A stretch of 64,000 nt of DNA. Source: Streptomyces sp. WZ.A104. GTDB taxonomy: Bacteria > Actinomycetota > Actinomycetes > Streptomycetales > Streptomycetaceae. Position numbers and translations under genes: made by a program. Every line of letters starts with the position of its first letter. Position 1 is the stretch's first letter. The DNA is taken from NCBI RefSeq assembly GCF_002382885.1, contig NZ_NWVL01000005.1:1-64000 (forward strand), given 5' to 3'. Below the pieces are notes generated by a model. That model did not search any database. It was not told the origin of the DNA and saw only the letters and a program-made list of their open reading frames with translations. Positions 7,985-48,073 of this stretch are shown one piece after another.

Positions 7985-8478
<494 letters not shown>

Positions 8479-22561: not shown

Positions 22562-22693
22562 CTGAATCCCCTGGGCCCGTTCGTGTCCGTTTCCCCGGGT
22601 GCACCGGTGCTGGTCACGCCCACGGCGAGGGCAGGTCCGGCAGCCCGGCGTGCCCGCTTCCCGCCGACCGGCGCCCGAATCCTGACCGAAGGC

Positions 22694-23858
22694 TCAGCGG
22701 CAGGGCACGGGCGCTCCACGGCCGAGCGTGGTGAGCGCGGCGAACGAGGTGGAAACGGCGATGAGCTCGTGGGCCTCGGCGTCCATGTCGTTGCCCGACG
22801 GGGAGGCGACGCGCACGGCCGGATGCGTCGTGTCCGGGTCCTCGACGAGCGGTTTCCGGGCCAGCGCCGCACGGATGTGCAGGGCGAGCTGATCGGGCCC
22901 GCAGCGGGCGAGGTCGGTGCCGGGCGCCACGCGGACAAGGTGGGGACTCAACCGGACCAGCCCGTCGCGGCATTCGATGAGGCGGCGGTAGAAGCGTGCG
23001 TGGGTGTGGCGCAGCCGCAGTCGGCCCCACCGGGACGTGGGTGGCTCCCGGTTGAGGACGACGTCCGGGTACGCCGTGACCAGCGCCGTCCACAGGGGAG
23101 TGAGCTGGTGGTGCATCCGCCGGTGGCGCGCGACCGAACGCAGGTGGGTCACCAGCTGCACTCCGGCGGAGAGGGTGATGCCGATGAGCACGGCCCCCAG
23201 GGCCACATCGGTGAGGGCTCGGTTGACCGTGTCGAGCACCGGGTGAGACGGCCCGCACGATCACCCAGAGAACCCGCACGGCCGAGGTGACCGCCAAGCC
23301 GAAGAGCCCGATCGACATGGTCCGCAGGCTGGGGGCCAGGGAACGGGACGCCAGGCGCGTGTAGCGCAGCGCCCAGCGGCCCGAGGTGAGGTGCGCGTAG
23401 AAGAAGTAGGCGTTGCCGATGAGGTAGAAGGAGGCGATGGCCGGCTCGGCCATGTGCGGGGTGGAGAGCGTATGGCCCCGCAGGGCGGGCGGGGTGGCGA
23501 GCATGGTGACGACCAGAGCCCCCAGGACCGCGGCCAGCAGGCCGGTGTGCAGACGGACGTGGCGTCGGTGAAGGGAGGGGGCGTCACTGGTCGAGGCGGT
23601 GAAGAAGAGTACGAGAACGCCCAGGCCGCACATGTAGACCCAGTTGAAGGCGATCTTGCCGACGCCGACGGCCGTCAACTCGTCCACCCGGCCGCTGACT
23701 TCCTCGAATCCCAGGAGGTCGCCCACCGTGAGCAGGAACAGCGAGGCGACGAGCAGACGCAGGACTCGGTCGTGCGGGGCGCGGACGAGATCGATGGTTT
23801 TCCACGCGAAGCCGATGACCAGCATGACGGTCACCGGCACATGGAGGATCACCTCCAC
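22694..23858 (-). pseudogene. MAB_1171c-family membrane protein, frameshifted
   Basis: The first part (start 23858) has about seven hydrophobic segments, ending in TSAVRVLWVIVRAVSP near 23245. There the frame breaks: one extra C in TCACCCGGTG shifts it, and the second half resumes as VLDTVNRALTDVALG, running to the stop at 22694 with a helix and a soluble tail (RHTHARFYRRLIECRDGL is typical). Removing one C gives a single protein of about 387 residues, the normal length of this putative transporter family (DUF6545). Its start overlaps the ImmA/IrrE gene by 10 bp. Mutation or sequence error; two separate proteins are less likely. Confidence 0.72.
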
Positions 23859-24373
23859 CCCCAGCGCGAACCCAGCGCGGAACGCAGCGGATCGAGGGAC
23901 GGGTCCTCGCAGCCGCGCGCCGTGGTGTGGTCAATGACGACGGCCCACTCCTGGATGATGGTCGCGACCAGCTCCGCCTCGCGTTCGTAGTCCTCGGAGT
24001 AGGAGGTGCGGTGGAGCCTCCGGGTGATCAGACCGCGGGGGTGATCGGTGCCGCTCATCCCCAGAACCTCCTCCTCCGCGCGCGCGTCGGCCTCGTGATC
24101 GGCGAGGATGTGGCCGACCTCATGGAGGATGATGTGGTCCTGGTGTACCCGGGTCGTCTCCTTCTGGTAAAAAATGTGTTCCTCGTCCGTGCGGGATATC
24201 CACACGCCGAAGGGGCCGGGAGCGGGCAGCTCCCAGGGGATCAGCCGGATGGGCTTTCCGCGGTTCAGGCCGAGCCGGTGGCACAGTTCGTCCACGCGGA
24301 GCGGTGGCCGGATGTCGAGTTGGCGCAACAGACGTTTGCAGTAGCGGCGGAGCTCGCGCTCGCGTATGGCCAC
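23849..24373 (-). CDS. ImmA/IrrE-family metallopeptidase-like protein
   Basis: Protein of 174 residues with the zinc-peptidase motif HEVGH at about residues 84-88 and a downstream glutamate in EREAELVATII that completes the gluzincin ligands. The family cleaves or binds cognate XRE-type regulators. The XRE gene lies 11 bp upstream in the same operon and the MAB_1171c-like gene overlaps downstream; this three-gene set recurs in Streptomyces. A role in signal-dependent removal of the regulator is inferred from family knowledge; it is often annotated as a toxin component. Confidence 0.85.
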   Translation of the reverse strand: MAIRERELRRYCKRLLRQLDIRPPLRVDELCHRLGLNRGKPIRLIPWELPAPGPFGVWISRTDEEHIFYQKETTRVHQDHIILHEVGHILADHEADARAEEEVLGMSGTDHPRGLITRRLHRTSYSEDYEREAELVATIIQEWAVVIDHTTARGCEDPSLDPLRSALGSRWGWR

Positions 24374-24384
24374 GACGTCCTTCC

Positions 24385-24855
24385 TCAGTGCTGGGCGCCG
24401 GGGTCGGCGGGGGCGTCCTGATCGAAGGTCTCGATCATCTTGAGCAGCTGTTCCCGCATCGTAGGCGTCATCGCGCCCGCCCTCATGGCGATCATCCGGA
24501 CCTGCCGGCTGGCCAACTGCTCGCGGAGCAGTTCGTCTTCGGGATCTCTGCCCGCCACCAGCGACTGGATCGTGATCGGAGCGGCCCCCGGCTCACGGTG
24601 GTCGTCGAAGAACTTCACCAGGCCGTCGAGGACGCCCAGCGTCGGGTTCGTGTGTGAGCCGTTGCGCAGCATCGCGAGGTAGCTCCTCGACAACGTCGCT
24701 GGGTGGGACGGATCGGCGGTCACCGCCTTGGCCACCTCGGCCGTCGAATACTCCCGTTGCCTCCCATGGGCGTCGCGCCATCGCACCATGGCGAACAACG
24801 CGTTCAACCGCTCGGCCAACGACTGGCCGCGACACTGCTCCCTACCTGCTGACAA
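24385..24855 (-). CDS. XRE/EspR-like helix-turn-helix regulator
   Basis: Protein of 156 residues. The HTH region is STAEVAKAV followed by SRSYLAMLRNGSHTNPT (about residues 37-70), the pattern of EspR-type regulators, with LDGLVKFFDD after it. The C-terminal part (REQLASRQVRMIAMRAGAM) is helical and probably dimerises. TTG at 24855 is taken as start because GGGGAG lies 8 bp upstream in the message. First gene of the XRE / ImmA-IrrE / MAB_1171c operon, divergent from the ParB-like regulator across 183 bp that contain an AT-rich GATAATATC. Confidence 0.8.
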   Translation of the reverse strand: MSAGREQCRGQSLAERLNALFAMVRWRDAHGRQREYSTAEVAKAVTADPSHPATLSRSYLAMLRNGSHTNPTLGVLDGLVKFFDDHREPGAAPITIQSLVAGRDPEDELLREQLASRQVRMIAMRAGAMTPTMREQLLKMIETFDQDAPADPGAQH

Positions 24856-25038: not shown

Positions 25039-26157
25039 ATGTCCGATGGGTTGGCCGACGTCGTCGAAGACAGTGAGTACGGGCGCGGCACGGAGCTGGT
25101 ATCCGTCGACGCCCTGCATGTCTCGGGTCGTCCACGTGTCGCGGCGGAGGACACTCGGCACACCCGGGCCCTCGCCGATTCGGACGTCCCGCTGCCGCCC
25201 ATCGTCGTCCACCGGCCCACGATGCGTGTCGTGGACGGCTTCCACCGTCTGCGGGCCACGGTGCTGCGGGGAGAAGAACGTATCCGCGTCAGCTTCGTCG
25301 AGGGCACGCTCGACGAGGCCTTCGTCCTGGCCGTAAGGGTCAACACACGGCAGGGGATGCCTCTTTCGCACGCCGACCGGACGGCGGCAGCCGCCCGCCT
25401 CGTCGAGAGCCACCCCCAGTGGTCCGACCGCCGCATCGCCGAGATCGCCTGCCTGTCGCCCACCACCGTGGCCGCGCTGCGGAGCCGTTCAACCGGCCGT
25501 CGTGGGCAGTTGAACGCACGGGCGGGCCGCGATGGACGGGTCCGCCCGCTCGACGCCGACGCCGCGCGGGGGCGTCGGCGCGCGGCGCTATTCATCGGTG
25601 CCAGGCCCGAGGCATCCCTGCGCGAGGTGGCGGCCGTGGCCGGTGTCGCGGTCGCCACGGCCAGAGACGTACGGGCCAGGCTGCGGGCCGGTGAGAGTCC
25701 GCTGCCCCCGAAGCTGCGGGCCGCCGAACGGGAGGGCGTCCCCGATGACGGTGCGGCGGCCCCGGCGTCCGCTCGCGGTGCGGAGGAGGCGCCCGCTCGC
25801 GGTACGGAGGAAGCGTTCGCTTGCGGTACGGAGGAGCGGTCGCCGACCGCCGCCGGTCCGTCGCCGACGGGGGGCGGCAGATGTGTGGTGCAGATGCCGC
25901 AGCGCTTCGCGCACCCGGCCGTCCCCAATCTGCGCAAGGACCCCTCGCTGCGCTTCACCGAGGCCGGTCGCACGCTGCTGAGGCTGTGGAGTGCGCACTC
26001 GATGGACGCCCAACGATGGCGGTGGCTGGCCGGAGGTGTGCCCGCCCACCGGCTTGGCGATGCCGTCTGGGCCGCACAACAGTGCGCCGACCAGTGGCGT
26101 CGCTTCGCCAGAGACCTCGAAATCCGAGCGGCGGAAGGCCGTGACCGGACCGGCTGA
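25039..26157 (+). CDS. ParB-domain (StrR/NovG-like) transcriptional regulator
   Basis: Protein of 372 residues. The ParB N-domain (about 15-100) carries the box VDGFHRLRATVLRGEE, followed by an HTH of the type DRRIAEIACLSPTTVAALR (about 130-150). A second helical region with ASLREVAAVAGVAVATARDVR lies near 195. Residues 245-268 are three 8-residue repeats. The tail MDAQRWRWLAGGVP is shared by regulators of antibiotic clusters. AGAGGAG precedes the ATG. It lies first in the block of three regulators before the angucycline genes; a pathway-activator role like StrR is inferred, rather than plasmid partition, as no parA gene is near. Confidence 0.75.
   Translation: MSDGLADVVEDSEYGRGTELVSVDALHVSGRPRVAAEDTRHTRALADSDVPLPPIVVHRPTMRVVDGFHRLRATVLRGEERIRVSFVEGTLDEAFVLAVRVNTRQGMPLSHADRTAAAARLVESHPQWSDRRIAEIACLSPTTVAALRSRSTGRRGQLNARAGRDGRVRPLDADAARGRRRAALFIGARPEASLREVAAVAGVAVATARDVRARLRAGESPLPPKLRAAEREGVPDDGAAAPASARGAEEAPARGTEEAFACGTEERSPTAAGPSPTGGGRCVVQMPQRFAHPAVPNLRKDPSLRFTEAGRTLLRLWSAHSMDAQRWRWLAGGVPAHRLGDAVWAAQQCADQWRRFARDLEIRAAEGRDRTG
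25771..25842 (+). repeat. Three 24-bp in-frame tandem repeats in the ParB-like gene
   Basis: Units at 25771-25794, 25795-25818 and 25819-25842 begin GCTCGCGGTGCGGAGGA, GCTCGCGGTACGGAGGA and GCTTGCGGTACGGAGGA. Each codes for eight residues of the form A(R/C)G(A/T)EExx, giving an acidic flexible linker between the DNA-binding part and the C-terminal part. Copy number may vary between strains. Confidence 0.8.
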
Positions 26158-26630
26158 CACCTGAAATTAATGTCGCCCGTGCATAGGGGGCGTCGTAAAC
26201 ACGCAGTGGATGAGACGGACTTCACGGCGAGCGGTCTTGAAGAGTGCCGAAGTGACTCGTGTACGTTGAAGTAATTGTCGGCGTGCTGCTTCCCGGCTTT
26301 GTGGTGGTAATGGAGCCCGGTGTGCGTCGTGGGATTGCTGAAGGGATGCTGGGATGCCTCATTGCATGGCGTGCACAGTTCCGGTAGTTCCTCGGGTCTG
26401 CGAGGCTGGGTACACGCGAGGCGGTCCGTCCTCGCGATGTTTGCCGGTTTTCGGCGGCCGGTGAGCCGCACACCAGAAGAAGGGTGCCGGCCAGGCCCGC
26501 TGTCGTGCCCGCCGGTCCTGTACTTTGCCCGAAGTGCTTCCCTTCCGCGGTGGGCATCGGGAATTCTCGATGCTGTTGCCCGCGCCCGTGTGCCGACACC
26601 TTGGTACGTATCGCCAGTTATGGGGGAAAG
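26158..26630. other. Gene-poor, AT-richer regulatory region before the LuxR-type gene
   Basis: 473 bp with visibly lower GC than the surroundings. Frames exist here but lack ribosome sites and biased codon use; one minus-strand frame reads HTGLHYHHKAGKQHADNYF and might be a relic, without a family I recognise. The region must hold the promoter of the LuxR-type regulator; a GGGGGAAAG ribosome site lies right before its ATG. Confidence 0.4.
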
Positions 26631-28034
26631 ATGAATGCGACGGAGTGCGAAAACAATCGGAAAGCGGATGTTTTCGCCGGGCGGCACGCGTGGCGCACAG
26701 ATCCGGTTGCGCCAGGGTGGCGCAACGCAGCCGTTCACACGGCATGGGAGGGAAGGGGACAGGAGAGCGCCCCTGCCTTAGCCAGGCCGTCGGCGCCGTC
26801 CCGGTCCGCGGTCACCTACACGCCGGGGATCGTGCTCCGTGGTGAGGTCGATGGTATGCGGCCCGAATTGCGCGCCGCCGTGCAGAGCATCGGACTGGCC
26901 AATCTCGGGGTGGGCCGTGCGGTGGTCACCGAACAGACCGAGTGGGTGCTGGAATCGGACGCGGCCAGGTCCGAGGCGCACTGCGCCTGGCTGGCGATCC
27001 TGGCGCTGCACTACACCGGTGACCTCGTCTCGGCGGACGCGCAGTGCGAGCGGCTCGCCCGTGATCCCGTGTGGGCCGGGTCGGACCGGCACCAGGAACT
27101 GCTGACGCTCCTGAGGGCCCGCAGCAGTCTGATGTCGGGCGATGTGGCGCGGGCCGCGGAGCTGCTGAAGGCGCTTCTCGCCCGCCGCGCGCCGACGTTG
27201 CCCATCTGCCTCACGGTCGCCTGGCTGATCGAGGCGCTGGTCCACCTGGGCGAGTTCGACCAGGCCCACCAAGTGCTCCTCGACCACGGGCTGGTCGGCC
27301 GGCTCGGCTCCCACCTGCCCGACCGGGTGCACGTGCTGGCGGCCAGGGGTGCCCTGCACATGGCCGCCGGTCAGTTCCGGCACGCCATCGATGACTACAC
27401 CGCCTGCGGCCGGATTCTGGCCACGCTCAACGTGGTCAACTCCGCTGTCGTTCCCTGGCGGTCCAGGGCGGCCCTCGGGGCGCTGGCCGTACAGCGGTAC
27501 GACCTGGCACTCGCGCTGGCCGAGGACGAACTGATCGCGGCCCGGAAGTGGGGATCGGCCAGGGGTGTGGGCACGGCGCTGCACGCGGTGGCCATGGCGC
27601 GCCGGGACGGGACGTCCCCGGCCCTGCTGGAGGAGGCCGTCCAGCTCCTCGAACTCGGGCACGCCAGGTCCGAGCTGATGCAGGCGCTCTACGACCTCGG
27701 GATGATGCAGGCCGAACGCAAGGACGTGGTGGGCGGGCGCAGCCGGCTGGAGGAGGTCGACGAGGTGGCCCACGCGTGCGGCAACGCCTTCTGGGCGCGG
27801 CGCGTGAAGCCGGCTCTGGCCCGCCTGAACGACCCCGACGGCAGTCGTGTGCTCACCCGGCAGGAGAACAAGATCGCCCAGCTGGCCCGGGCCGGATACA
27901 GCAACCGGAGGATAGCGGAGACGCTCTTCCTGGCGGTTCGGACGGTCGAATTCCACTTGTCCAGTGTGTACCGGAAGCTGGATATCTCGGGCCGGCAGGA
28001 GCTGGTCACCGCCCTGGGGGTCGTGGCCCCTTAG
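26631..28034 (+). CDS. LuxR-type (LAL-like C-terminus) regulator with a TTA codon
   Basis: Protein of 467 residues. A C-terminal LuxR HTH (about 405-460) reads LTRQENKIAQLARAGYSNRR and TVEFHLSSVYRKL. Residues about 75-390 are helical and TPR-like (repeated A/L-rich helices such as HYTGDLVSADAQCERLA), as in the C-terminal half of large LAL regulators, but the NTPase domain with Walker motifs is absent. Leucine 50 is coded by TTA (26778-26780), so translation should depend on the bldA tRNA. Position just before the angucycline genes suggests a pathway activator. A clear terminator follows (28053-28084). Confidence 0.88.
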   Translation: MNATECENNRKADVFAGRHAWRTDPVAPGWRNAAVHTAWEGRGQESAPALARPSAPSRSAVTYTPGIVLRGEVDGMRPELRAAVQSIGLANLGVGRAVVTEQTEWVLESDAARSEAHCAWLAILALHYTGDLVSADAQCERLARDPVWAGSDRHQELLTLLRARSSLMSGDVARAAELLKALLARRAPTLPICLTVAWLIEALVHLGEFDQAHQVLLDHGLVGRLGSHLPDRVHVLAARGALHMAAGQFRHAIDDYTACGRILATLNVVNSAVVPWRSRAALGALAVQRYDLALALAEDELIAARKWGSARGVGTALHAVAMARRDGTSPALLEEAVQLLELGHARSELMQALYDLGMMQAERKDVVGGRSRLEEVDEVAHACGNAFWARRVKPALARLNDPDGSRVLTRQENKIAQLARAGYSNRRIAETLFLAVRTVEFHLSSVYRKLDISGRQELVTALGVVAP

Positions 28035-28052: not shown

Positions 28053-28084
28053 GCCGCCCATCTCTCCGAGATGGGCGGCATTTT
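28053..28084 (+). terminator. Intrinsic terminator after the LuxR-type gene
   Basis: GCCGCCCATCTC (28053-28064) and GAGATGGGCGGC (28068-28079) form a perfect 12-bp stem with a 3-base loop, followed by ATTTTC. The T-tract makes this one of the clearest intrinsic terminators in the window, 19 bp after the stop codon. Confidence 0.9.
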
Positions 28085-28185
28085 CGTGTTCTGTTCGGCG
28101 GAGTTTCCCCGGTTGAAATAAAGGTGTGCTGCTGCGAGGGGGAATCTGCGGGTGGGCCGCAGCGACCCTGTGGGTGCCCCGTAAT

Positions 28186-28212
28186 GGAACCTGCGGGTGC
28201 CCCGCAGGTTCC
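28186..28212. promoter_or_regulatory. 12-bp hairpin in the region before the MarR gene
   Basis: GGAACCTGCGGG (28186-28197) and CCCGCAGGTTCC (28201-28212) pair perfectly over 12 bp around TGC, with no T-tract. Degenerate copies (GGAATCTGCGGGTGG at 28141 on) lie just before. It could be an operator, a second terminator or an RNA element ahead of the MarR-oxygenase-PKS transcript. Confidence 0.4.
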
Positions 28213-28324
28213 CCGCGGTTCCCTTGTGTGCCAGTCGGTGCGGATGACAGGCTCGAAATCAATTCAGCGGGATTCGCTCACCGGGCTGCGGCCGCAACCG
28301 ACGTACACCGAGGCAGGAATTCGC

Positions 28325-28750
28325 ATGCTTCAGCAGAACACGACCAAGCGCATCGGATATTGGCTGCTGCACCTGCATCAACTTTTCGACGAAGCCACTC
28401 GGCGGGCACTGTCGGAACAGAACCTGAATCGGCGTCAGTGGCAGGTGCTGCACGCGATCAGTATCCAGGTGAATACCGTCGCCGGAATCGATGAGGCGTT
28501 CTCCCCCTTCCTGGCGGTGGACCGGGCGGGGACGTACGGCCCCATCGTGAAGGAGTTCGAGGCCCGTGGCTGGGTGACAACGGACGGCACGGCCATTTCC
28601 CTCACCGAGGACGGGGAGGCGGCGCATGCACGGGCCGAGGCCGCGGTGAACGCGCATGCGGACCAGTCGCTCGCGGGGATATCCGAGGCCGAGTTCCTCG
28701 CCGCCAACGACGTACTGGCGCGCATCGCCCACAACCTTGAGACCAAATAG
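28325..28750 (+). CDS. MarR-family regulator
   Basis: Protein of 141 residues. The winged helix is at about 40-100: NRRQWQVLHAISI, then AGTYGPIVKEFEARGWVTTD and SLTEDGEAAHARAEA, the usual recognition helix and wing. ATG at 28325 follows AGGCAGGA. It lies 25 bp before the first angucycline gene in the same direction, so it is likely co-transcribed with the pathway and may sense a pathway intermediate or product. Whether it represses or activates is not visible. Confidence 0.85.
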   Translation: MLQQNTTKRIGYWLLHLHQLFDEATRRALSEQNLNRRQWQVLHAISIQVNTVAGIDEAFSPFLAVDRAGTYGPIVKEFEARGWVTTDGTAISLTEDGEAAHARAEAAVNAHADQSLAGISEAEFLAANDVLARIAHNLETK

Positions 28751-28775: not shown

Positions 28776-30260
28776 ATGGATGCTTCAGTCATTGTCGTGG
28801 GAGCCGGGCCCGCAGGGCTCGCGCTGGCCGGGGAACTGCGTCTCGCCGGTGTCGACGTCATCGTGCTGGACCGGCTGGCCGCACCGTCCGGAGAATCGCG
28901 CGGCATCGGGTTCACGATCCGGACCATGGAAGTCTTCGACCAGCGGGGACTTCTCTCCCGCTTCGGCGAGATCGAGACCAGCGAGGCCGGGCACTTCGGC
29001 GGCCTGCCCCTCGACCTGGGGGCGCTGGGCGCCGCCCACGCATCCGCGAGGACCGTTCCCCAGTCCGTGACCGAGGGAGTCCTGGAGCGCTGGGCCCGCG
29101 ACCTGGGCGCCGACATCAGGCGCGGACACGAGGTCACAGGCCATGTCGAGGACGGCGACGGGGTGACCGTCACCGTCTCGGGCGACGGGGCCAATCTGCG
29201 CGCCCGCTACCTGGTGGGCTGTGACGGAGGGCGCAGCGGCGTTCGCCGGGCCGCCGGCTTCGACTTCCCCGGAACTCCCGCCACCACCGAACTCTTCCTC
29301 GCCGACATCAAAGGCGCGGATCTGTCGCCCCGCATGGTGATCGACCGGACCGACGACGGCCTGGTGATGGTCGCGCAACTGCCGGGCGGCATCCACCGCG
29401 TCATCGTGGGCGAGCGAGGCACGACGCCCCCCGAGCGGCGCACCGCACCGCCCGCCTTCAGCGAGGTCGCCGATGTCTGGAAGCGCCTGACGGGCGGTGA
29501 CATCTCCGGGGCGGAGCCAGTCTGGGTCAGCGCGTTCACCGACGCCGCCCGGCAGGTCACCGCGTACCGGCGCGGCCGGGTGCTGCTGGCCGGGGACGCC
29601 GCGCACGTCCATCTGCCCGCCGGTGGGCAGGGGATGAACACCAGCATCCAGGACTCGGTGAACCTCGGCTGGAAGCTCGCGGCGGTGGTGCGCGGCACCG
29701 CCCCCGACACGCTTCTCGACTCCTACCACGACGAACGCCACGAGGTCGGCCGCAGGCTCCTCACGAACACCCGGGCACAGAGCTCCCTCATCCTCGGCGG
29801 CGCCGATGCCGGGCCGGTTCGCGAGATCCTGGGCGAACTCCTCACCCTGCCCGAGGTGGAACGCCATCTGGCGGCCCGGGTCAGCGGCCTGGACATCCGC
29901 TACGACGTGGGCGGCGGCGCGCATCCCCTGCTCGGGGCCCGCATGCCGCGGCTCCGGCTCACTCACGAGGGCAAGGAGACCAGCAGCGGCGAACTCCTGC
30001 GGACGGGGCGCGGGGTACTGCTGGACCTGGCGGACAACGCCACGCTGCGCGGCCGTGCCCGGGAATGGACCGACCGGATCGACGTGGTGACAGCCGTCCC
30101 GCACGACCCCACGGCCGACCACCTGCCGGCCGGCACCACCGCACTCCTGCTGCGTCCCGACGGCCATGTGGCCTGGGCCGCTCCGGGCTCCCACTCCGAC
30201 CTGCCGATGGCGCTGGCCCGCTGGTTCGGGCCGGCCCGACGAACACGAGAAGGGGAATGA
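28776..30260 (+). CDS. Angucycline FAD monooxygenase (PgaE/UrdE-type)
   Basis: Aromatic polyketide hydroxylase of 494 residues. FAD motifs: [13 protein letters not shown] near residue 9, the middle DG motif [20 protein letters not shown] near residue 148, and [23 protein letters not shown] near residue 265. In gaudimycin and urdamycin biosynthesis this enzyme hydroxylates the prejadomycin/UWM6 core, usually at C-12 and C-12b. GGGAGG precedes the ATG. The stop overlaps the cyclase start. It heads the conserved E-F-A-B-C-D-L-M gene order of angucycline clusters, which is the main ground for the specific name. Confidence 0.92.
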
Positions 30261-30583
30261 TGCACAGCACGCTGATCGTGGCCAGGATGGCATCCGGCTC
30301 GGCCGAGGAAGTCGCCGAACTCTTCGGAGCCTTCGACCGTACGGATGTTCCCGGCCGCATGGGCACCCGCCGCCGCCGGCTCTTCGAGTTCCGCGGCCTC
30401 TACTTCCACCTCCAGGACTTCGACGAGGACAACGGCGAGGACCTGATCGAGGAGGCCAAGACCGACCCCCGCTTCGTCCGCATCAGCCAGGACCTGAAGC
30501 CGCACATCCAGGCATACGACCCCGCCACCTGGCGGTCGCCCAAGGACGCCATGGCCCGACGCTTCTACGACTGGAGGGCCTGA
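30257..30583 (+). CDS. TcmI-family polyketide cyclase (UrdF/PgaF-type)
   Basis: Small cyclase of 108 residues with the ferredoxin-like fold of TcmI. The family pattern is seen in [19 protein letters not shown] at the N-terminus, [17 protein letters not shown] in the middle and [12 protein letters not shown] at the end. In angucycline pathways it closes the later rings of the decaketide. It is enclosed by overlaps: ATG within the oxygenase stop and a TGATG overlap with KS-alpha, so all three are translated together. Confidence 0.92.
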
Positions 30584-31863
30584 TGAGCGGGGTGTACGGA
30601 CGCCGGGTCGTGATCACCGGGGTCGGAGTCACCGCCCCCGGCGGAAAGGGCCCCAAGGAGTTCTGGAAGCTTCTCACCGACGGACGTACGGCCACCCGCC
30701 GTATCTCCTTCTTCGACCCCTCGCCGTTCCGCTCGCAGATCGCCGCCGAGGTCGACTTCGACGCCGAACTCTCCGGACTCGGCCCGCAGGAGATCCGCAG
30801 GATGGACCGGGCCGCCCAGTTCGCGGTGGTCACCGCCCGCGACGCGGTCGCCGACAGCGGACTGGAGTTCGCCGCCCTCGTCCCGCAGCGGACCGGGGTG
30901 ACGATCGGCAGCGCGGTCGGCGCGACCACCGGCCTGGACCAGGAGTACCGCACGGTCAGCGACGGCGGCCGACTGGAACTGGTGGACCACGCCTACGCGG
31001 TCCCGCATCTGTACAACCACATGGTCCCCAGCTCCTTCGCGACCGAGGTCGCGTGGGCGGTGGGCGCGGAGGGGCCGAGCACGGTGGTGTCCACCGGCTG
31101 CACCTCCGGTCTGGACGCGGTGGGGTACGCCGCGGACGTCATCAGGGAAGGCTCGGCCGATGTGATGATCGCGGGCGCGACCGACGCGCCCATCTCGCCG
31201 ATCACCGTGGCCTGCTTCGACGCGATCAAGGCCACCACGCCCCGCAACGACGACCCCGAGCACGCCTCGCGGCCCTTCGACGCCAGCCGCAACGGCTTCG
31301 TCATGGGTGAGGGATCGGCCGTGTTCGTCCTGGAGGAACTGGACAGCGCCCGTGCCCGCGGGGCGCGGATCTACGCCGAGGTCGCCGGATTCGCGACACG
31401 CTCGAACGCGTTCCACATGACCGGACTCCGCCCCGACGGCGCCGAGATGGCCGAGGCCATCAGGGTCGCCCTGGACGAGGCCCGGCTCAACCCCGAGGAC
31501 ATCGACTACATCAACGCCCACGGTTCCGGGACCAAGCAGAACGACCGGCACGAGACGGCGGCGTTCAAGCGCAGCCTGGGGGAGCACGCTCACCGGACCC
31601 CGGTCAGCTCCATCAAGTCGATGGTCGGCCACTCGCTCGGCGCCATCGGCTCGATCGAGATCGCAGCGTCCGTCCTCGCCATGACCCACGACGTGGTGCC
31701 GCCGACGGCGAATCTCCACAACCCCGACCCGGAGTGCGACCTGGACTACGTGCCGCTGACCGCACGCGACTGGAAGACCGACAGCGTGCTCTCCGTGGGC
31801 AGCGGCTTCGGCGGATTCCAGAGCGCGATGGTGCTGGCCAAGCCCGAGCGGGGCGCCCGATGA
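30583..31863 (+). CDS. Type II PKS ketosynthase alpha (KS-alpha)
   Basis: Condensing subunit of 426 residues of the minimal PKS. Active site: Cys about 173 in [13 protein letters not shown], His in [12 protein letters not shown] (about 305) and His in [10 protein letters not shown] (about 345). It forms the heterodimer with KS-beta and builds the poly-beta-ketone chain from malonyl-ACP. Overlaps the cyclase stop (TGATG) and the KS-beta start (ATGA). By neighbours the product is the C20 decaketide of angucyclines. Confidence 0.97.
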
Positions 31864-33122
31864 GCGCGCGTGCACTGGTCACCGGGCTCGGGATCGTCGC
31901 GCCGACCGGACTCGGCATCGAGGACTACTGGTCGGCCACCCTCGCGGGCCGCAGCGCGATCGGACGGGTGACGCACTTCGACCCCACGCCCTACCCGTCC
32001 CGGCTGGCGGGCCAGGTCAGCGGGTTCGACGCCGCGGAGCACCTGCCCAGCCGGCTCCTGCCGCAGACCGACCGGATGACCCGGCTCGCCCTGGTCGGCG
32101 CCGACTGGGCGTTCGAGGACGCCGGTGTGGTCCCCGCCGACCTGCCCACGTACGACATCGGAGTGATCACCGCGAGCCACTCCGGCGGCTTCGAGTTCGG
32201 CCAGAACGAGCTGCGGGCGCTGTGGAGCAAGGGCGGCCAGTACGTCAGCGCGTACCAGTCCTTCGCCTGGTTCTACGCGGTCAACAGCGGGCAGATCTCC
32301 ATCCGCAGCGGCCTCCGCGGCCCCAGCAGCGTCGTGGTCAGTGACCAGGCGGGAGGGCTCGACGCGGTCGCCCAGGCCCGCCGGCAGATCCGCAAGGGGA
32401 CCAGCATGGTCATCTCGGGCGCGGTCGACGCGTCGATCTGCCCCTGGGGGTGGGTCGCCCAGATGGCCGGAGGCCGCCTCAGCACCTCCGACGACCCGGA
32501 GCGGGCCTACCTCCCCTTCGACGACCGGGCCGCCGGGCACGTACCGGGTGAGGGCGGCGCGCTGCTGGTCGTCGAGGACGCCGGACACGCGAAGCGGCGT
32601 GCGGCGCCCCGGGTGTACGGCGAGATCGCCGGGCACGCGTCGACGGTGGACCCCAGGCCAGGCAGCGACCGTGCGCCCACCCTGCAGAACGCCATCCAAC
32701 TCGCCCTGGCAGACGCGGACATGGTCGCCGACGACATCGGCGTCGTGTTCGCCGACGCCGCGGGCCTGCCGGACCTGGACCGGGCCGAGGCCGAGGCGAT
32801 CACCAAGGTCTTCGGGCCCCGCGGGGTGCCGGTGACCGCGCCCAAGACCACGACAGGACGGCTGTACTCCGGTGCCGCTCCTCTGGACCTCGCCGCCGCG
32901 TTCCTCTCGATGCGCGACCAGGTCGTGCCGCCGACGGCCGCCTCCACCCCGGCCAGGTCCTACGAGATCGACCTCGTGACCGGCGCCCCCCGTCCCGCCG
33001 AACTGCGCAGCGCGCTCGTGCTCGCCCGCGGTCACGGCGGCTTCAACTCGGCGATGGTCGTGCGCGGAGCCGACCACGCCGCTCTGCGACCCGTAGGGAA
33101 GGACACCCATGACCACCAGTGA
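31860..33122 (+). CDS. Type II PKS ketosynthase beta / chain length factor
   Basis: KS-like subunit of 420 residues in which the active-site cysteine is replaced by glutamine (Gln about 163 in [13 protein letters not shown]), the hallmark of chain length factors; this residue decarboxylates malonyl-ACP for priming. The N-terminus [17 protein letters not shown] and [15 protein letters not shown] are standard. It sets the chain length together with KS-alpha. Overlaps KS-alpha by 4 bp; its 3' end overlaps the ACP start by 14 bp. Confidence 0.97.
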
Positions 33123-33378
33123 ATTCACCCTCCAGGCCCTCAGGACCACGCTCCTGGAAGGCGCCGGAACCGACGAGAACGTGGATCTGAACGGCGACAT
33201 CGCCGACACCACCTTCGAGGACCTCGGCTACGAGTCGCTGGCGATGCTGGAGACCGTCGGCCGCATCGAGCGCGAGTACGGCATCGACCTGGACGAGGAG
33301 GAGGTCGCCCTGGCGAACACCCCCCGCGCACTCATCCGCCTCGTCAACGACCGGCTGTCCGCCGCCCAGTCCGCCTGA
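33109..33378 (+). CDS. Type II PKS acyl carrier protein
   Basis: Carrier protein of 89 residues. The phosphopantetheine attachment serine is Ser about 43 in DLGYESLAMLE, the consensus of aromatic PKS carrier proteins. It starts 14 bp inside the KS-beta gene and ends 12 bp before the ketoreductase gene. It carries malonyl units and the growing chain. No phosphopantetheinyl transferase is in the window. Confidence 0.96.
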   Translation: MTTSEFTLQALRTTLLEGAGTDENVDLNGDIADTTFEDLGYESLAMLETVGRIEREYGIDLDEEEVALANTPRALIRLVNDRLSAAQSA

Positions 33379-33390
33379 TCGGAGACCCTG

Positions 33391-34176
33391 ATGACCGACA
33401 ACACGGCCAAAGTCGCGCTGGTCACCGGCGCCACCAGCGGAATCGGCCTGGCTTCCGCCCGGCTCCTCGCCGAGCAGGGACACCGGGTGTTCCTCTGCGC
33501 CCGGGACGCGAGCGCGGTCGCCGAGACCGTCAAAGCCCTGCGGAACGAGAACCTCGACGTGGACGGCGAGGCCGCCGACGTCCGCTCCAAGGACGACATC
33601 GAGGCCGTCGTGCGAGCGGCGGTGGCCCGGTTCGGGCCGATCGACGTCCTGGTCAACAACGCGGGCCGCAGCGGGGGAGGGGTCACCGCGGACATCGCCG
33701 ACGACCTGTGGGACGACGTCATCGCCACCAACCTCACCAGTGTGTTCCAGGTGACCCGGGAAGTCCTCAACACCGGTGGCATGCGCGAGAAGAAGCGCGG
33801 CCGCATCATCAGCATCGCCTCCACGGCGGGCAAGCAGGGCGTGGTGCTCGGCGCCCCGTACTCCGCCTCGAAGCACGGTGTGGTCGGATTCACCAAGGCG
33901 CTGGGCAACGAGCTGGCGCCGACCGGGATCACCGTCAACGCGGTGTGCCCCGGCTACGTCGAGACGCCGATGGCGCAGCGTGTGCGGCAGGGGTACGCGG
34001 CCGCCTACGAGACGTCCGAGGACGCGATCCTGGAGAAGTTCCGCGCGAAGATCCCCCTGGGCCGGTACTCCACCCCGCAGGAGGTCGCCGGACTCGTCGG
34101 CTACCTCGCCTCCGACCCGGCGGCCTCCATCACCGCGCAGGCGCTGAACGTCTGCGGAGGTCTGGGCAACTTCTGA
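33391..34176 (+). CDS. Polyketide C-9 ketoreductase (SDR)
   Basis: NADPH-dependent reductase of 261 residues. Cofactor loop TGATSGIG at about 12-19; catalytic Ser about 144 (SIASTAGKQG), Tyr about 157 and Lys about 161 (YSASK); NNAG at about 89-92. It reduces the first ketone of the nascent chain, normally C-9, and so guides the first ring closure. GGAG lies before the ATG. The position between ACP and aromatase is standard for angucycline clusters. Confidence 0.95.
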   Translation: MTDNTAKVALVTGATSGIGLASARLLAEQGHRVFLCARDASAVAETVKALRNENLDVDGEAADVRSKDDIEAVVRAAVARFGPIDVLVNNAGRSGGGVTADIADDLWDDVIATNLTSVFQVTREVLNTGGMREKKRGRIISIASTAGKQGVVLGAPYSASKHGVVGFTKALGNELAPTGITVNAVCPGYVETPMAQRVRQGYAAAYETSEDAILEKFRAKIPLGRYSTPQEVAGLVGYLASDPAASITAQALNVCGGLGNF

Positions 34177-34243
34177 CGGCGCCATCCCCCATACCCCGTA
34201 GCGACTTCCCTGCCCATTGAGCACGTTGAGTGAGGAGACAGCT

Positions 34244-35191
34244 GTGTCCGTACAAGCCGGCCGCGAGGTCGAGCACGAGATTACCGTCCTGGCCGCCGCC
34301 GAGGACGTCTACCGACTGCTTGCCGAGGTGGAGAACTGGCCGAGGCTCTTCCCGCCGTCGGTGTACGTCGACGTCCTGGAGCGTGAGGGAAGCCTGGAGC
34401 GGATACGTATCTGGGCCACCGCGAACGGCGAGGCCAAGAACTGGACCTCGATCCGGGACCTCGATCCGGACGGGCTGCGCATCACGTTCCGGCAGGAGAT
34501 CTCCGCCCCACCCGTGGCGTCGATGAGCGGCACCTGGATCGTGGAGCCGCTGGGGGAGGAGGAATCCCGGCTCTGGCTGCTCCACGAGTACCGCGCGATC
34601 GACGACGACCCCGAAGGCCTCGCCTGGATCGACGAGGCCGTCGACCGCAACAGCCGCGCCGAACTCCCCTCGGTCAAGGCCGGACTCGAAGAAGCCACCC
34701 GGACCGACGAGCTGACGCTGTCCTTCGTGGACAGCGTCACGGTCGAAGGCTCCGCGAAGGACCTCTTCGACTTCGTCAACGAGGCCGACCGCTGGACCGA
34801 GCGGCTGCCGCACGTCAATGACGTCAAACTCACCGAGGAGACCCCCGGCCTCCAGGTCCTGCGGATGGAGACCCTCACCAAGGACGGCTCGGCACACACG
34901 ACCGAGTCGGTACGGGTCTGCTTCCCGCACCACCGCATCGCCTACAAGCAGACCACGCTGCCCGCCCTGATGAACCTCCACACCGGGTACTGGCTCTTCG
35001 AGGAGGCCCCCGACGGCACCACCACCGCGAGCTCGCAGCACACGGTGGTCCTCAACGCCGCGAACATCACCAAGATCCTCGGAGCGGACGCGGGCGTCCC
35101 CGAAGCCAGGGAGTTCCTTCGCAACGCCCTCGGCAACAACAGCCGCGCCACGCTGGAGCACGCCAGGAAGTACGCGGAAGCGCGGCGCTGA
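34244..35191 (+). CDS. Didomain aromatase/cyclase (UrdL/PgaL-type, SRPBCC fold)
   Basis: Protein of 315 residues made of two START/Bet v1-like domains (about 1-155 and 160-310). Domain 1 begins EVEHEITVLAAAEDVYRLLA with WPRLFPPSV; domain 2 begins LTLSFVDSVTVEGSAKDLF with WTERLPHVNDV. Didomain enzymes aromatise the first ring of C-9-reduced polyketides. GTG at 34244 is preferred since GAGGAG lies about 6 bp before; a TTG at 34217 would add nine residues. The fused oxygenase-reductase gene follows 3 bp after the stop. Confidence 0.93.
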   Translation: MSVQAGREVEHEITVLAAAEDVYRLLAEVENWPRLFPPSVYVDVLEREGSLERIRIWATANGEAKNWTSIRDLDPDGLRITFRQEISAPPVASMSGTWIVEPLGEEESRLWLLHEYRAIDDDPEGLAWIDEAVDRNSRAELPSVKAGLEEATRTDELTLSFVDSVTVEGSAKDLFDFVNEADRWTERLPHVNDVKLTEETPGLQVLRMETLTKDGSAHTTESVRVCFPHHRIAYKQTTLPALMNLHTGYWLFEEAPDGTTTASSQHTVVLNAANITKILGADAGVPEAREFLRNALGNNSRATLEHARKYAEARR

Positions 35192-35194
35192 CCG

Positions 35195-37225
35195 ATGCCC
35201 GTGCACACCCCCCGGAGCGCGGTGGACACCGACGTGGTCGTGGTCGGCGCCGGTCCGGTCGGGCTGCTCCTCGCCGGAGACCTGCGCACCCATGGGGTGC
35301 GGGTCACCGTGGTGGAGCGGCTGACCACGCCGATGACCGAATCACGCGCGTCCACCCTGCACGCCCGCACGATGGAGGCGCTCGCCGAACGCGGCGTCCT
35401 CGACCGGCTCGGCCCGCTCCCGGACGGCGGTCCGGGGCACTTCGGCGGCATCCGGCTCGACCTGGCCGAGGCCGAGCCGGGCCATCCGCACGCGGGACAG
35501 TGGAAGTGTCCCCAGACCAGGATGGAGGCGGTGCTCCAGGAGCGGGCCGTCGAGCTGGGGGCGCGGATACTGCGAGGGCGACAGCTCGTCGCCCTGGCGG
35601 ACCGCGGCGACCGCGTGCTGGTCGCGACCGCCGCGACGGAACCGGCCGGCGGCCCGGCCGAGGAGCTGACCGGATCGTATGTCGTCGGCTGCGACGGCTG
35701 GCGGTCCGCCGTACGGGACCTGGCGGGCTTCACGTTCCCCGGCCGGCCGGCGGGCCGCGAGATGCTGCGGGCCGACGTCACCGGAATCCATGTCCCCGAC
35801 CGTCGGTTCGAGCGCCTGCCCGACGGACTGGCCACCGCCCACCGCTGGCCGGACGGCAGCACCCGGGTCATGGTGCACGTCTTCGGCACGGAGCCCCGGC
35901 GCCACGCCGGGGAGCCGGAGTTCGACGAGATCGTGCGGGCCTGGGCACACGTCACCGGTGAGGACATCGGCCACGGGACCCCCCGGTGGCTGAACGCCTT
36001 CGACGACGCCCGACGCCAGGCCGCCCGCTACCGCCGGGGCCGGGTCCTGCTCGCCGGAGACGCCGCCCACGTACAGATGCCGGTCGGCGGGCAGGCCCTC
36101 AACCTCGGCCTCCAGGACGCCGCCGCGCTCGGCGCACGGCTCGCCGAGCAGCTCAGGGCCCCGACGGGCGGCGGTCCCGGGGCCGACGGGGACGCCCTGG
36201 ACGCGTACCACCGTGAGCGCCACCCCGTGGGGGCCGCCACGCTCACCAACATCCAGGCGCAGTCGACGCTACTGCTCGGCGGGCACGAGGTGGAGCCGCT
36301 GCGCGAGCTCTTCGCCGAGCTCATGCGCCTCGGGCCGGTACGCCGACGGCTCGCCCGCATGATCAGCGGCCTCGGCGCGCCGCCTACGGCCGGCGCGGGG
36401 GCCGACGGGCTCCCCGCTCTCCCTTCCCCGACGACTTCACAGGACAGGACTCCCACGATGGCCAAGCTCACGAACAAGACCGCGCTGGTGACCGGCTCCA
36501 GCCGGGGAATCGGCCGCGCCACCGCCCAGCGGCTGGCCGCCGAGGGCGCACTCGTCGCGGTGCACTACGCGTCCAACGAGGACGCGGCGCGCGAAACCGT
36601 CGAACTGATCGAGAAGGACGGGGGACGGGCCTTCAAGGTCCGGGCCGAACTCGGTGTCCCCGGAGACGTGCACGAACTCTTCCTGGGACTGGAGCGCGGT
36701 CTCAAGGAGCGCACCGGCGCCACGACCCTCGACATCGTGGTCAACAACGCGGCGGTGACCACCCCCGCCGGGGTGCGGCCGGAGGATGTCACGCCCGAGG
36801 AGTTCGAGCGGCTCTTCGCGGTGAACGCCAAGGCCCCGTTCTTCATCGTGCAGCGCGCTCTCGCCCTGCTCCGCGACGGCGGCCGCATCATCAACATCTC
36901 CTCCGGCCTCACCCGCTGCGCCAACCCCGACCAGGTCGCGTACTCCATGACCAAGGGCGCGGTCGAGCAGATCACCCTGCACTTCGCGCGCCACCTGGCG
37001 CCGCGCGGCATCACCGTCAACAGCGTGGCGCCCGGCATCACCAACAACGGCGGCCCGGTCTTCGACATCCCCGAGGCCGTGGAGCAGATGGCTCAGCTGT
37101 CGGCGTTCAAACGCGTCGGCGAGGCGGTGGACGTCGCGGACGTGGTGACCTTCCTCGCCACCCACGAGGCCCGGTGGATCACCGGAGCCTTCATCGACGC
37201 AAGCGGTGGCACCCTGCTGGGCTGA
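35195..37225 (+). CDS. Fused FAD monooxygenase - short-chain reductase (PgaM/UrdM-type)
   Basis: Bifunctional protein of 676 residues. Residues 1-410 are an aromatic hydroxylase: GAGPVGLLLAGDL at about 18, GCDGWRSAVRDLAGFTFPG near 165, and [20 protein letters not shown] near 280. Residues 422-676 are an SDR: TGSSRGIG near 432, NISSG near 567 and YSMTK near 582, so its catalytic Tyr and Lys are intact. In gaudimycin C biosynthesis PgaM works in the same layout and a free reductase is also made from an internal start. Here an ATG at 36458 with AGGACAGGA upstream stands exactly at the domain junction. This ends the E-to-M core block. Confidence 0.92.
   Translation: MPVHTPRSAVDTDVVVVGAGPVGLLLAGDLRTHGVRVTVVERLTTPMTESRASTLHARTMEALAERGVLDRLGPLPDGGPGHFGGIRLDLAEAEPGHPHAGQWKCPQTRMEAVLQERAVELGARILRGRQLVALADRGDRVLVATAATEPAGGPAEELTGSYVVGCDGWRSAVRDLAGFTFPGRPAGREMLRADVTGIHVPDRRFERLPDGLATAHRWPDGSTRVMVHVFGTEPRRHAGEPEFDEIVRAWAHVTGEDIGHGTPRWLNAFDDARRQAARYRRGRVLLAGDAAHVQMPVGGQALNLGLQDAAALGARLAEQLRAPTGGGPGADGDALDAYHRERHPVGAATLTNIQAQSTLLLGGHEVEPLRELFAELMRLGPVRRRLARMISGLGAPPTAGAGADGLPALPSPTTSQDRTPTMAKLTNKTALVTGSSRGIGRATAQRLAAEGALVAVHYASNEDAARETVELIEKDGGRAFKVRAELGVPGDVHELFLGLERGLKERTGATTLDIVVNNAAVTTPAGVRPEDVTPEEFERLFAVNAKAPFFIVQRALALLRDGGRIINISSGLTRCANPDQVAYSMTKGAVEQITLHFARHLAPRGITVNSVAPGITNNGGPVFDIPEAVEQMAQLSAFKRVGEAVDVADVVTFLATHEARWITGAFIDASGGTLLG
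36441..36460 (+). promoter_or_regulatory. Internal ribosome site and start for the free reductase domain
   Basis: AGGACAGGA (36441-36449) lies 8 bp before ATG 36458, in frame, at codon 422 of the fused gene. A product from here would run to 37225 (255 residues) and begin AKLTNKTALVTG after the Met, a normal SDR N-terminus. The known PgaM protein is made in two such forms. Confidence 0.6.
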
Positions 37226-37258
37226 CCGCCGCGGCATCCGAGACGAGCAGGAGGACCG

Positions 37259-38830
37259 GTGACGACCGTACAAGCAACGCCGAGCATTGCCGAACACCTC
37301 GGTGAACTCATCGAGTTGAAGAAGTCCGCCCGGGTCGGACCCGATCCCGCGGCAACGGAGCGCCAGCACGCCAAGGGCAAGCTCACCGCGTACGAACGCA
37401 TCGATCTCCTGCTGGATCCGGGCAGCTTCACCGAGGTCGAGCCACTGCGGCGGCACCGGGCCACGGGATTCGGTCTTGAGGCCAAACGGCCGCACTCCGA
37501 CGGTGTGGTCACCGGCTGGGGAACCGTCGAGGGACGCACCGTATTCGTGTACGCGCACGACTTCCGGATCTTCGGGGGCGCGCTGGGAGAGGCGCACGCG
37601 CAGAAGATCCAGAAGATCATGGACATGGCCATCGCTTCGGGCGGTCCGCTGGTGTCCCTGAACGACGGCGCGGGCGCCCGTATCCAGGAAGGCGTCTCGG
37701 CACTGGCCGGATACGGCGGCATCTTCCAGCGCAACACCCGGGCATCCGGGGTCATCCCGCAGATCAGCGTGATGCTCGGCCCCTGCGCGGGGGGAGCCGC
37801 CTACTCCCCGGCGCTGACCGACTTCGTCTTCGCGGTCCGCGGGATAGCGCAGATGTTCATCACCGGCCCCGACGTGGTCCGCACGGTCACCGGGGAGGAG
37901 GTCTCACAGGACGGGCTGGGCGGGGCCGATGTGCACGGCTCCACGTCGGGCGTCGCGCACTTCGTCCACGACGACGAGGAGACCTGCCTGGCCGAGGTGC
38001 GCTGGCTCCTGTCGCTGCTGCCCGCCAACAACCGTGAACTGCCGCCCGCCGTCGTCACCGGCGATCCGGCGGACCGCAGGGTGGACCGCCTCCTCGAACT
38101 GGTCCCGGCCGACGGCAACCGCTCCTACGACATCCGCGACGTCATCGCCGAACTCGTCGACGACGAGGACTACATGGAGGTCCACGCCCAGTGGGGTACC
38201 AACCTGGTCTGCGCACTGGCCCGGCTCGACGGCCGGGTCGTCGGCGTGGTCGGGAGCCAGCCCGCCGCCCTGGCCGGTGTCCTGGACATCACCGCGAGCG
38301 AGAAGGGCGCCAGATTCGTCCAGTTCTGCGACGCCTTCAACATCCCCCTCCTGACGCTCGTGGACGTGCCGGGCTTCCTGCCCGGCGTGGACCAGGAGCA
38401 CGGTGGCATCATCCGGCGTGGCGCCAAGCTGCTGTACGCCTACTGCAACGCCACCGTGCCGCGGATCTCCGTGGTGCTCCGCAAGGCGTACGGCGGTGCG
38501 TACATCGTGATGGACTCGCGCTCCATCGGCACGGACCTCGCCCTGGCCTGGCCCACCAACGAGATCGCGGTGATGGGTGCGGAAGCAGCCGCGGACGTGG
38601 TCTTCCGGCGCGAGATCGCCGCCTCCGACGACCCGGCGACCACCCGCGAGCAGAAGATCAAGGAATACCGGCGGGAGCTCGTACACCCCTACTACGCGGC
38701 CGAACGCGGCCTGGTCGACGATGTGATCGACCCGGGCGACACGCGGGCCGTCCTCATCCGCTCCTTCGCGATGCTCCAGCGCAAGGACGCCGACCTGCCG
38801 CGCCGCAAGCACGGCAACCCGCCCCAGTGA
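37259..38830 (+). CDS. Acyl-CoA carboxylase carboxyltransferase beta subunit
   Basis: Biotin-dependent carboxyltransferase of 523 residues, of the acetyl/propionyl-CoA carboxylase type. Typical blocks: RIDLLLDPGSFTEVEPL, SLNDGAGARIQEGV, MLGPCAGGAAYSPALTDF, VDVPGFLPGVDQEHGG and RKAYGGAYIVMDSRS, covering both crotonase-like halves. GTG at 37259 follows AGGAGG. Placed in the PKS transcript with an epsilon subunit overlapping its stop, it would raise the malonyl-CoA supply for the angucycline PKS. The biotin-carrying alpha subunit is not in the window and must come from elsewhere. Confidence 0.94.
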   Translation: MTTVQATPSIAEHLGELIELKKSARVGPDPAATERQHAKGKLTAYERIDLLLDPGSFTEVEPLRRHRATGFGLEAKRPHSDGVVTGWGTVEGRTVFVYAHDFRIFGGALGEAHAQKIQKIMDMAIASGGPLVSLNDGAGARIQEGVSALAGYGGIFQRNTRASGVIPQISVMLGPCAGGAAYSPALTDFVFAVRGIAQMFITGPDVVRTVTGEEVSQDGLGGADVHGSTSGVAHFVHDDEETCLAEVRWLLSLLPANNRELPPAVVTGDPADRRVDRLLELVPADGNRSYDIRDVIAELVDDEDYMEVHAQWGTNLVCALARLDGRVVGVVGSQPAALAGVLDITASEKGARFVQFCDAFNIPLLTLVDVPGFLPGVDQEHGGIIRRGAKLLYAYCNATVPRISVVLRKAYGGAYIVMDSRSIGTDLALAWPTNEIAVMGAEAAADVVFRREIAASDDPATTREQKIKEYRRELVHPYYAAERGLVDDVIDPGDTRAVLIRSFAMLQRKDADLPRRKHGNPPQ

Positions 38831-39048
38831 ACGCCGCCCCCGGCCGGGAGGAGCCGCTGCTCCTGCGGATCGAGAAGGGCTCACCCGACGCGGCGGAGCT
38901 CGCCGCCGTCACCACCGCCCTGTTCACCCGCCTCACCGCCCCACCACCGGAGTCCGGCCACCCCGGGCGCACTGCCGCCCCGTGGCGCCGCCCCGAACGG
39001 TCCTCCGGCTTCGAGGGCCCCAGAAGCTGGCAGGACACCCTCACTTGA
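38827..39048 (+). CDS. Acyl-CoA carboxylase epsilon subunit
   Basis: Small protein of 73 residues, starting GTG inside the beta-subunit stop (GTGA). The pattern LRIEKGSPDAAELAAVTTAL at the head and a tail ending RSSGFEGPRSWQDTL with a conserved tryptophan match AccE/PccE epsilon subunits of actinomycetes, which tighten the alpha-beta complex. The middle is Pro-rich linker. Such genes are often missed because of size and low similarity. Confidence 0.8.
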   Translation: MNAAPGREEPLLLRIEKGSPDAAELAAVTTALFTRLTAPPPESGHPGRTAAPWRRPERSSGFEGPRSWQDTLT

Positions 39049-39077
39049 GCACGCCGATCATGAACGGAGAACAGAGC

Positions 39078-40061
39078 ATGGACACGGGACTCCTCTTCGA
39101 CCTGCGCAACCCGGACGCCTGGCACCGGCCGTGGGCCGACCACTACGCGCACGCGCTGGAGCTCTGCGAGGAAGCGGACCGGCGAGGCGTCGGCGGTCTC
39201 TGGTTCACCGAGCACCACCTCTTCGAGGACGGCTATCTGCCGCAGCCGCTGGTGTTCGCCGCGGCCGCCGCCGCCCGTACCCGCGACTGCCGCATCGGAA
39301 CCGCGGTCGTGCTCCCCAACCTGCGCAGGCCCGCACAACTCGCCGAGGACGCCGCGGTCGTCGACCTGATCAGCGGCGGCCGGCTGGAGCTGGGCGTCGG
39401 GGCCGGATACCGGGTGCCCGAATACCAGCTGTTCGAATCCGAGTTCGAGGGCCGCATCGGGCGGGTCGAGAAGAACATCGCCGAGGTCCGGCGCCTGTGG
39501 GCCGAGGGCGGCATCACCCCCGGGCCGATCCAGCGCCCGGTACCCGTGTGGGGCGGCTTCTACGGGCCGCGCGGCGCACGGATCGCGGGACGCCTCGGCA
39601 TCGGTCTGCTCCATATCAACCACGCCATGTACGAGCACTACCGTACGGGCCTGGAGGAGGGCGGCCACGACCCGTCCGTCGCCCGGGTCTCCGACCTGCT
39701 GCCGGTGATCCTGGCCGACGACCCCGAGGCCGCCTGGCCCCGGATCGCCCCGCACCTGGTCCATCAGATGAACTCCTACCGCACCGGGTCCGTGGAAGGC
39801 ACCGATCACCCCGCTCCGCCACTGCTGAAGGCGGAGGACTTCCCCGAGAAGCGCGCCGACGACGGGTCCTGGTCGACCCTGGAGGTCCTCACCCCCGAAG
39901 AAGCAGCGGTACGCATCCACGAGCGCACCGAGGGACTCCCGGTCAAGCACCTCATCTTCTGGGCGAGCATCGCGGGGATGCCCGACGACCTGGTGACCCG
40001 GCACATCGAACTGGTCAGTGAACGACTGCCGAAGCTGCTCGCCGAGGTGCGGGGCCGGTGA
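39078..40061 (+). CDS. Luciferase-like (LLM class) flavin-dependent oxidoreductase
   Basis: TIM-barrel protein of 327 residues of the bacterial luciferase superfamily, using FMNH2 or F420. Features: GGLWFTEHHLFEDGYLPQP near residue 38, LAEDAAVVDLISGGRLELGVGAGY near 95, and a C-terminal EAAVRIHERTEGLPVKHLIFW. ATG at 39078 follows CGGAGA 8 bp upstream. Its stop overlaps the exporter start by 4 bp. In the cluster it probably performs an oxidative tailoring step; the cofactor and position on the substrate cannot be read. Confidence 0.88.
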   Translation: MDTGLLFDLRNPDAWHRPWADHYAHALELCEEADRRGVGGLWFTEHHLFEDGYLPQPLVFAAAAAARTRDCRIGTAVVLPNLRRPAQLAEDAAVVDLISGGRLELGVGAGYRVPEYQLFESEFEGRIGRVEKNIAEVRRLWAEGGITPGPIQRPVPVWGGFYGPRGARIAGRLGIGLLHINHAMYEHYRTGLEEGGHDPSVARVSDLLPVILADDPEAAWPRIAPHLVHQMNSYRTGSVEGTDHPAPPLLKAEDFPEKRADDGSWSTLEVLTPEEAAVRIHERTEGLPVKHLIFWASIAGMPDDLVTRHIELVSERLPKLLAEVRGR

Positions 40062-44944: not shown

Positions 44945-45038
44945 AATCCCGGAACCTGTGGTCGTCCCGCAGTGACACGGTGTATATCCCCGGCGATACG
45001 GTGAGAACCGTTTCAGTCGAATCCCTGAGGAGAGCATC

Positions 45039-46719: not shown

Positions 46720-46767
46720 GGTGTGATCAACAGCGGTCCGCCTCCGATATTCCCGGCCGGGGGAGGG

Positions 46768-47998: not shown

Positions 47999-48029
47999 AC
48001 ACTGAACGGTATCGTTGAAGCTTCGGTGT
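47999..48029. promoter_or_regulatory. MerR-type inverted repeat between esterase and MerR genes
   Basis: ACACTGAA (47999-48006) and TTCGGTGT (48022-48029) form an inverted repeat with one mismatch and a 15-bp spacer, between the two divergent starts. MerR proteins bind such repeats in a stretched promoter spacer. Confidence 0.5.
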
Positions 48030-48073
48030 AAACTTTTCCGCAATTCCGGCAGGCAGATGAGAGAAAGTCTCAA

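Follow-up and report, generated by a model that had tools for sequence, protein, structure and literature searches.

The window, a stretch of 64,000 nucleotides from Streptomyces sp. WZ.A104, carries an angucycline-type operon (28785–41257, + strand) that we identified by homology and synteny. Its genes encode a PgaE-like oxygenase, cyclase, KS-alpha, KS-beta, ACP, KR, aromatase and oxygenase-reductase, together with an acyl-CoA carboxylase, a luciferase-like oxidoreductase and an MFS protein. We assigned the cluster to the angucycline type from matches of its oxygenases to PgaE and CabE (E <1e-180) and to angucycline oxygenase-reductases; it contains the KS-alpha, KS-beta, ACP, cyclases and PgaE/PgaM-type oxygenases by which such clusters are defined. 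Upstream is a MarR-like gene (28325–28750, +) that has weak HTH matches only and is the operon's first gene in most relatives. Ahead of it lies a gene at 26631–28034 (+), starting with ATG, that encodes a TPR-LuxR regulator of 467 aa, LAL-like and with no NTPase, as judged from its domains, a structural model and orthologues beside other angucycline-type clusters.

The regulator has a C-terminal GerE/LuxR HTH (PF00196, residues 407–460, E 3.7e-14). Matches to TPR families were weak and below the curated cut-off, and the TPR repeats are backed by an AlphaFold model built from five orthologues (mean pLDDT 71.7, pTM 0.64). The model predicts a TPR superhelix spanning roughly residues 67–400 and disorder over residues 1–59 (pLDDT <50), with the HTH part at low confidence. 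No NTPase/AAA domain with Walker A/B motifs was found among the regulator's Pfam matches, and the frame upstream of 26631, checked for a longer protein, is open only to 26388. These results bear out the first-pass annotation, which had described a protein that lacks the NTPase half of LAL regulators while keeping the TPR-like and HTH parts. TPR repeats followed by a LuxR HTH place it among the TPR+LuxR regulators; of the features that define LALs it has the C-terminal HTH and lacks both the N-terminal NTPase and the large size. In structure comparison, MalT domain III aligned with the model (Z 14.3, rmsd 7.0, 290 residues), as did the peptide sensors Rap, NprR and AimR. Helical repeats match widely in such comparisons, so we did not adopt a Rap/NprR/AimR-like function.

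Orthologues with 56–72% identity occur in G096, which holds the closest relative (72%), in G079 (Streptomyces sp. GQFP), G149, G176 and, as a frameshifted copy, G224, as well as in two other genera of the family (G559 and G500) and on S. chartreusis linear plasmids. Each of them has angucycline-type genes as neighbors. For this set (n = 9), an extra scan of genome contigs gave one locus, and a second sample of the genus consisted of the same genomes; an order-wide genome sample contained no orthologue except the window gene. The next nearest homologues are the C-terminal halves of LALs. The gene order regulator, MarR-like, PgaE-like, cyclase, KS-alpha, KS-beta, ACP, KR, aromatase is shared by the window, G096, GQFP, G149, G176, G224 and S. 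chartreusis, with further genes or gaps interrupting it in GQFP, G176 and G224. In G559 and G500 the genes before the regulator are luciferase-like and MFS; there the stretch compared does not reach the PKS genes. The regulator and several cluster genes of G224 (locus L047) are split by frame changes, which are probably sequencing errors of that assembly. Conservation beside the G096 cluster extends to genes on the far side of the regulator. Just upstream of it, 25039–26157 encodes a 372-aa protein that is ParB-like by eye, is 61% conserved and had no Pfam match above the cut-off. Three genes at 22614–24855 (−; one unknown, one weakly IrrE/M78-like, one with a weak HTH) are 61–81% conserved, and the middle gene of the G096 copy of this set has a TTA at codon 16.

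Leu50 of the regulator is encoded by an in-frame TTA (26778–26780, +), a claim of the first-pass annotation that the ORF and codon read-out confirmed. The codon lies in a poorly conserved leader that is predicted to be disordered, and its relevance depends on where translation begins. The ATG at 26631 is preceded by a Shine-Dalgarno-like GGGGGA (26622–26627, +) that is conserved in G096. A second in-frame ATG, at codon 76 (26856–26858, +), has GAGGT (26844–26848) 7 nt upstream, and GC3 is 0.67 over codons 1–49 and about 0.9 from codon 80. The weak GC3 of the leader and the presence of GAGGT made a start behind the TTA a real possibility, one that had been named at the outset as a way for the proposal to fail. 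Translation from 26856, which would leave the TTA in the mRNA 5' leader, agrees with GC3 climbing only from about codon 75–80 and with the good Shine-Dalgarno spacing of GAGGT, but it would exclude a conserved YxPG motif at residues 63–66. Y63 and P65, upstream of that ATG, do not vary among the full-length orthologues in the alignment, with G500 and G559 looser in this region of the alignment. Going upstream from Y63 in the window, the next start codons are at 26631 or earlier, so a protein that contains YxPG must also be read through the TTA. The G096 GTG start aligns with ATG 26631, and both are preceded by the same ATGGGGGAA (GGGGGAA leader). Between start and core, where leader identity to G096 is 35% over residues 1–49, the two genes differ by indels of 9 and 15 nt, which are whole codons, whereas indels farther upstream of the start are mostly not multiples of three. 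Given the conserved residues and the aligned G096 start, we rejected 26856 and regard initiation there as very improbable. The TTA thus appears to lie inside the translated region, with translation of the leader indicated by conservation.

The regulator's TTA had also been described as the only one in the window, which was incorrect. A codon scan found a second TTA at codon 29 of an MFS efflux gene (42731–44188, −) that is divergent from a TetR gene (44366–44944). This DHA2-type gene has a GGAGG Shine-Dalgarno at its start and a GC3 of 0.93. TTA codons in the frames 8203–8478 and 46727–48886 were dismissed, as they would be translated only from improbable upstream starts. Having a TTA of its own, the exporter gene may be gated alongside the regulator, which would fit coordinated export. 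Between this gene and the TetR gene we observed three copies of GACCGATCGGTC (at 44225, 44305 and 44337), which are probably TetR operators.

Among the nine orthologues, five have exactly one TTA and the other four have none. The five codons occupy five different alignment columns: codon 50 in the window, 149 in G096, 67 in GQFP, 23 in S. chartreusis, and a position in the TPR core in G224. A TTA in G500 (index 150 of the open frame) was left uncounted because it precedes the probable start. Window and G096 are sister branches in the tree, yet their TTA columns differ, and G096 has CTA, one step away, aligned to the window's TTA. Other genes of the same clusters contain TTA in 3/78 cases, compared with 5/9 for the regulator (Fisher p = 1.7e-4, or p = 0.001 with the window left out). 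The difference was smaller from 24 distant LAL homologues compared over their aligned halves, of which 3 have TTA (p = 0.02, and 0.047 when the window was excluded), and all these tests treat species as independent. From these sequences, the excess over ordinary LAL homologues appears modest. Since TTA is absent in 4/9 orthologues, the system does not require bldA gating.

These codons could be neutral, rare triplets that drifted into a fast-evolving and weakly constrained leader with little regulatory effect. Such drift would be in keeping with the poor conservation of the window's leader, its low GC3 and predicted disorder, the near-miss CTA of G096 and the TTAs of distant LAL homologues. 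It fits poorly with the placement of two of the five codons (G096 and G224) within the conserved TPR core, with the restriction to a single TTA at non-homologous positions in each TTA-bearing gene, and with the low frequency in neighboring genes, and reading any UUA would still require the bldA tRNA. We therefore consider neutrality unlikely.

An intrinsic terminator-like hairpin with 12-nt arms lies right behind the regulator gene (28053–28079, +), suggesting that the regulator forms its own transcript. Downstream of it, a motif scan found three tandem copies of an operator-like palindrome, none assigned to a strand: CTGCGGGTGGGCCGCAG at 28146–28162, the degenerate CTGTGGGTGCCCCGTAA at 28168–28184, and the perfect CTGCGGGTGCCCCGCAG at 28191–28207. 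The copies are spaced by 22 and 23 bp, about two helical turns, and G096 likewise has three. The palindrome, CTGCGGG-N3-CCCGCAG, stands 15 bp ahead of a −35-like CTTGT (28223–28227, +) in front of the angucycline operon. Across all clusters but that of G500, CTTG begins exactly 32 bp past the start of the promoter-proximal palindrome. The same scan found no operator copy in front of the regulator gene, so there is no sign of autoregulation. A weaker copy, CTGTGGTCGTCCCGCAG (44956–44972), was observed between the TetR gene and an SDR gene (45039–45827), with no CTTG at +32.

The pattern CTRYGGNNNNNCCGYAG-N15-CTTGT occurs in 8 of 393 Streptomyces genomes, namely 6/6 with the regulator and 2/387 without it (p = 5.7e-12); we note that the pattern was derived from the same six genomes, so that 6/6 is partly circular and the independent part is how rarely it occurs elsewhere. 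It is also informative that the strain's own 8.1 Mb genome has a single match, the site at 28191. Orthologous clusters have the same palindrome downstream of the regulator, before the MarR-like gene in five, before a SnoaL-like gene in G176 and before an acyl-CoA-dehydrogenase-like gene in G559 (the latter two named by eye). In S. chartreusis it is also found before a SnoaL-like gene that is divergent, and in GQFP and G149 before LuxR paralogues. At these last two loci (L044 and L045), the angucycline cluster is flanked by two further LuxR-type paralogues; the palindrome and CTTGT stand ahead of one of these as well, which suggests a regulator cascade.

On this evidence the palindromes before the angucycline operon are probable, though still candidate, targets of the LuxR-type regulator. 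The site could instead belong to the MarR-like protein or to another cluster regulator such as the 25039–26157 protein, possibly as a repressor site, with the LuxR protein acting elsewhere. Its position directly before the MarR-like gene in five clusters would suit a MarR-like owner. That assignment is hard to reconcile with G559 and G500, where the palindrome lies between the LuxR gene and an unrelated gene and the stretch compared contained no MarR homologue, or with its occurrence before the LuxR paralogues and the SnoaL-like gene of G176. Repression, in turn, agrees less well with the fixed distance upstream of a −35-like element, which suits an activator. Ownership by a protein other than the LuxR regulator thus seems improbable.

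Taken together, our preferred reading, to which we assign a probability of roughly 0.7, is that the LuxR-type protein is a cluster-situated activator, limited by bldA through TTA50, that binds the palindrome and starts the MarR–PgaE-like–PKS operon. Under this model, UUA50 would restrict translation of the regulator until the bldA tRNA becomes abundant in late growth, at which point the protein would accumulate. Through its C-terminal GerE HTH it would bind the three tandem palindromes (28146, 28168 and 28191) and recruit RNA polymerase to the promoter with the −35-like CTTGT 15 bp downstream, so that the operon is transcribed. If this is true, the antibiotic should be made only once the developmental tRNA bldA is available. 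The genome itself has at least one gene for a UUA-reading tRNA, the bldA tRNA-Leu(taa) gene at G000:C102:19857–19939, which is 93% identical to a bldA query sequence. In the window, ARAGORN also called a 101-nt tRNA-Arg (ccg) at 54549–54649 (−) within a coding region, probably a false positive. The proposal that one regulator ties the angucycline genes to bldA has held up in its main part, as the in-frame TTA, the bldA tRNA, the recurrent TTA of the orthologues and the probable operator make the link well supported by sequence; its premise of a single TTA gene did not hold.

A broader reading is that selection has maintained bldA dependence even as the TTA turns over in position, and that a dedicated operator-promoter (palindrome, 15 bp, CTTGT) controls angucycline operons and, in some species, further LuxR paralogues. 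We hold this tentatively, at slightly less than even odds. TTA would then be conserved as a property of the gene, not as a site. Retention of bldA control in antibiotic regulators is usually argued from single examples, and selected turnover would provide a clean case for why it is kept. The principle of bldA/TTA control is well known, and the regulator-operator pair is the more interesting, newly recognized part. To our knowledge, neither this pair nor the repeated gain of TTA among relatives has been described, and a literature search covering papers available without subscription found no account of such a LuxR protein in an angucycline cluster. The proposal gives a group of angucycline-type clusters a switch that can be tested, with one codon to change and one promoter motif to read out, and the operator allows clusters under the present regulator to be recognized from sequence.

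Comparison with known systems places the regulator among several types. It shares with LALs of the MalT/PikD type the C-terminal GerE HTH and a TPR-like helical repeat, and differs in having no NTPase domain and 467 aa rather than about 900–1100. TPR+LuxR proteins without an NTPase are a rare recorded actinobacterial architecture, with one in S. griseus (PMC3466318); they have the same domain arrangement, and the passages on them there give no function or operator. Streptomycete orthologue sets, including the amf/ram clusters, also show TTA recurring in some orthologues, which has been read as adaptive (PMC4255298, Table 2), and TTA is biased towards gene starts in streptomycetes (PMC4255298). 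Since both patterns are already described, the regulator is a further case and not a new principle; those sets, however, are widespread streptomycete genes, whereas the present gene, an angucycline cluster regulator, occurs in few genomes. S. coelicolor has 147 TTA genes (PMC2000904, PMC4255298), and bldA is known to act on regulators, among them actII-ORF4 and redZ, by way of their TTA codons (PMC2000904). As in those systems, a rare TTA in a regulator gene would put a whole antibiotic operon under bldA (PMC2000904), but here the protein is of the TPR-LuxR kind, not a SARP or atypical response regulator, and its TTA shifts place among orthologues.
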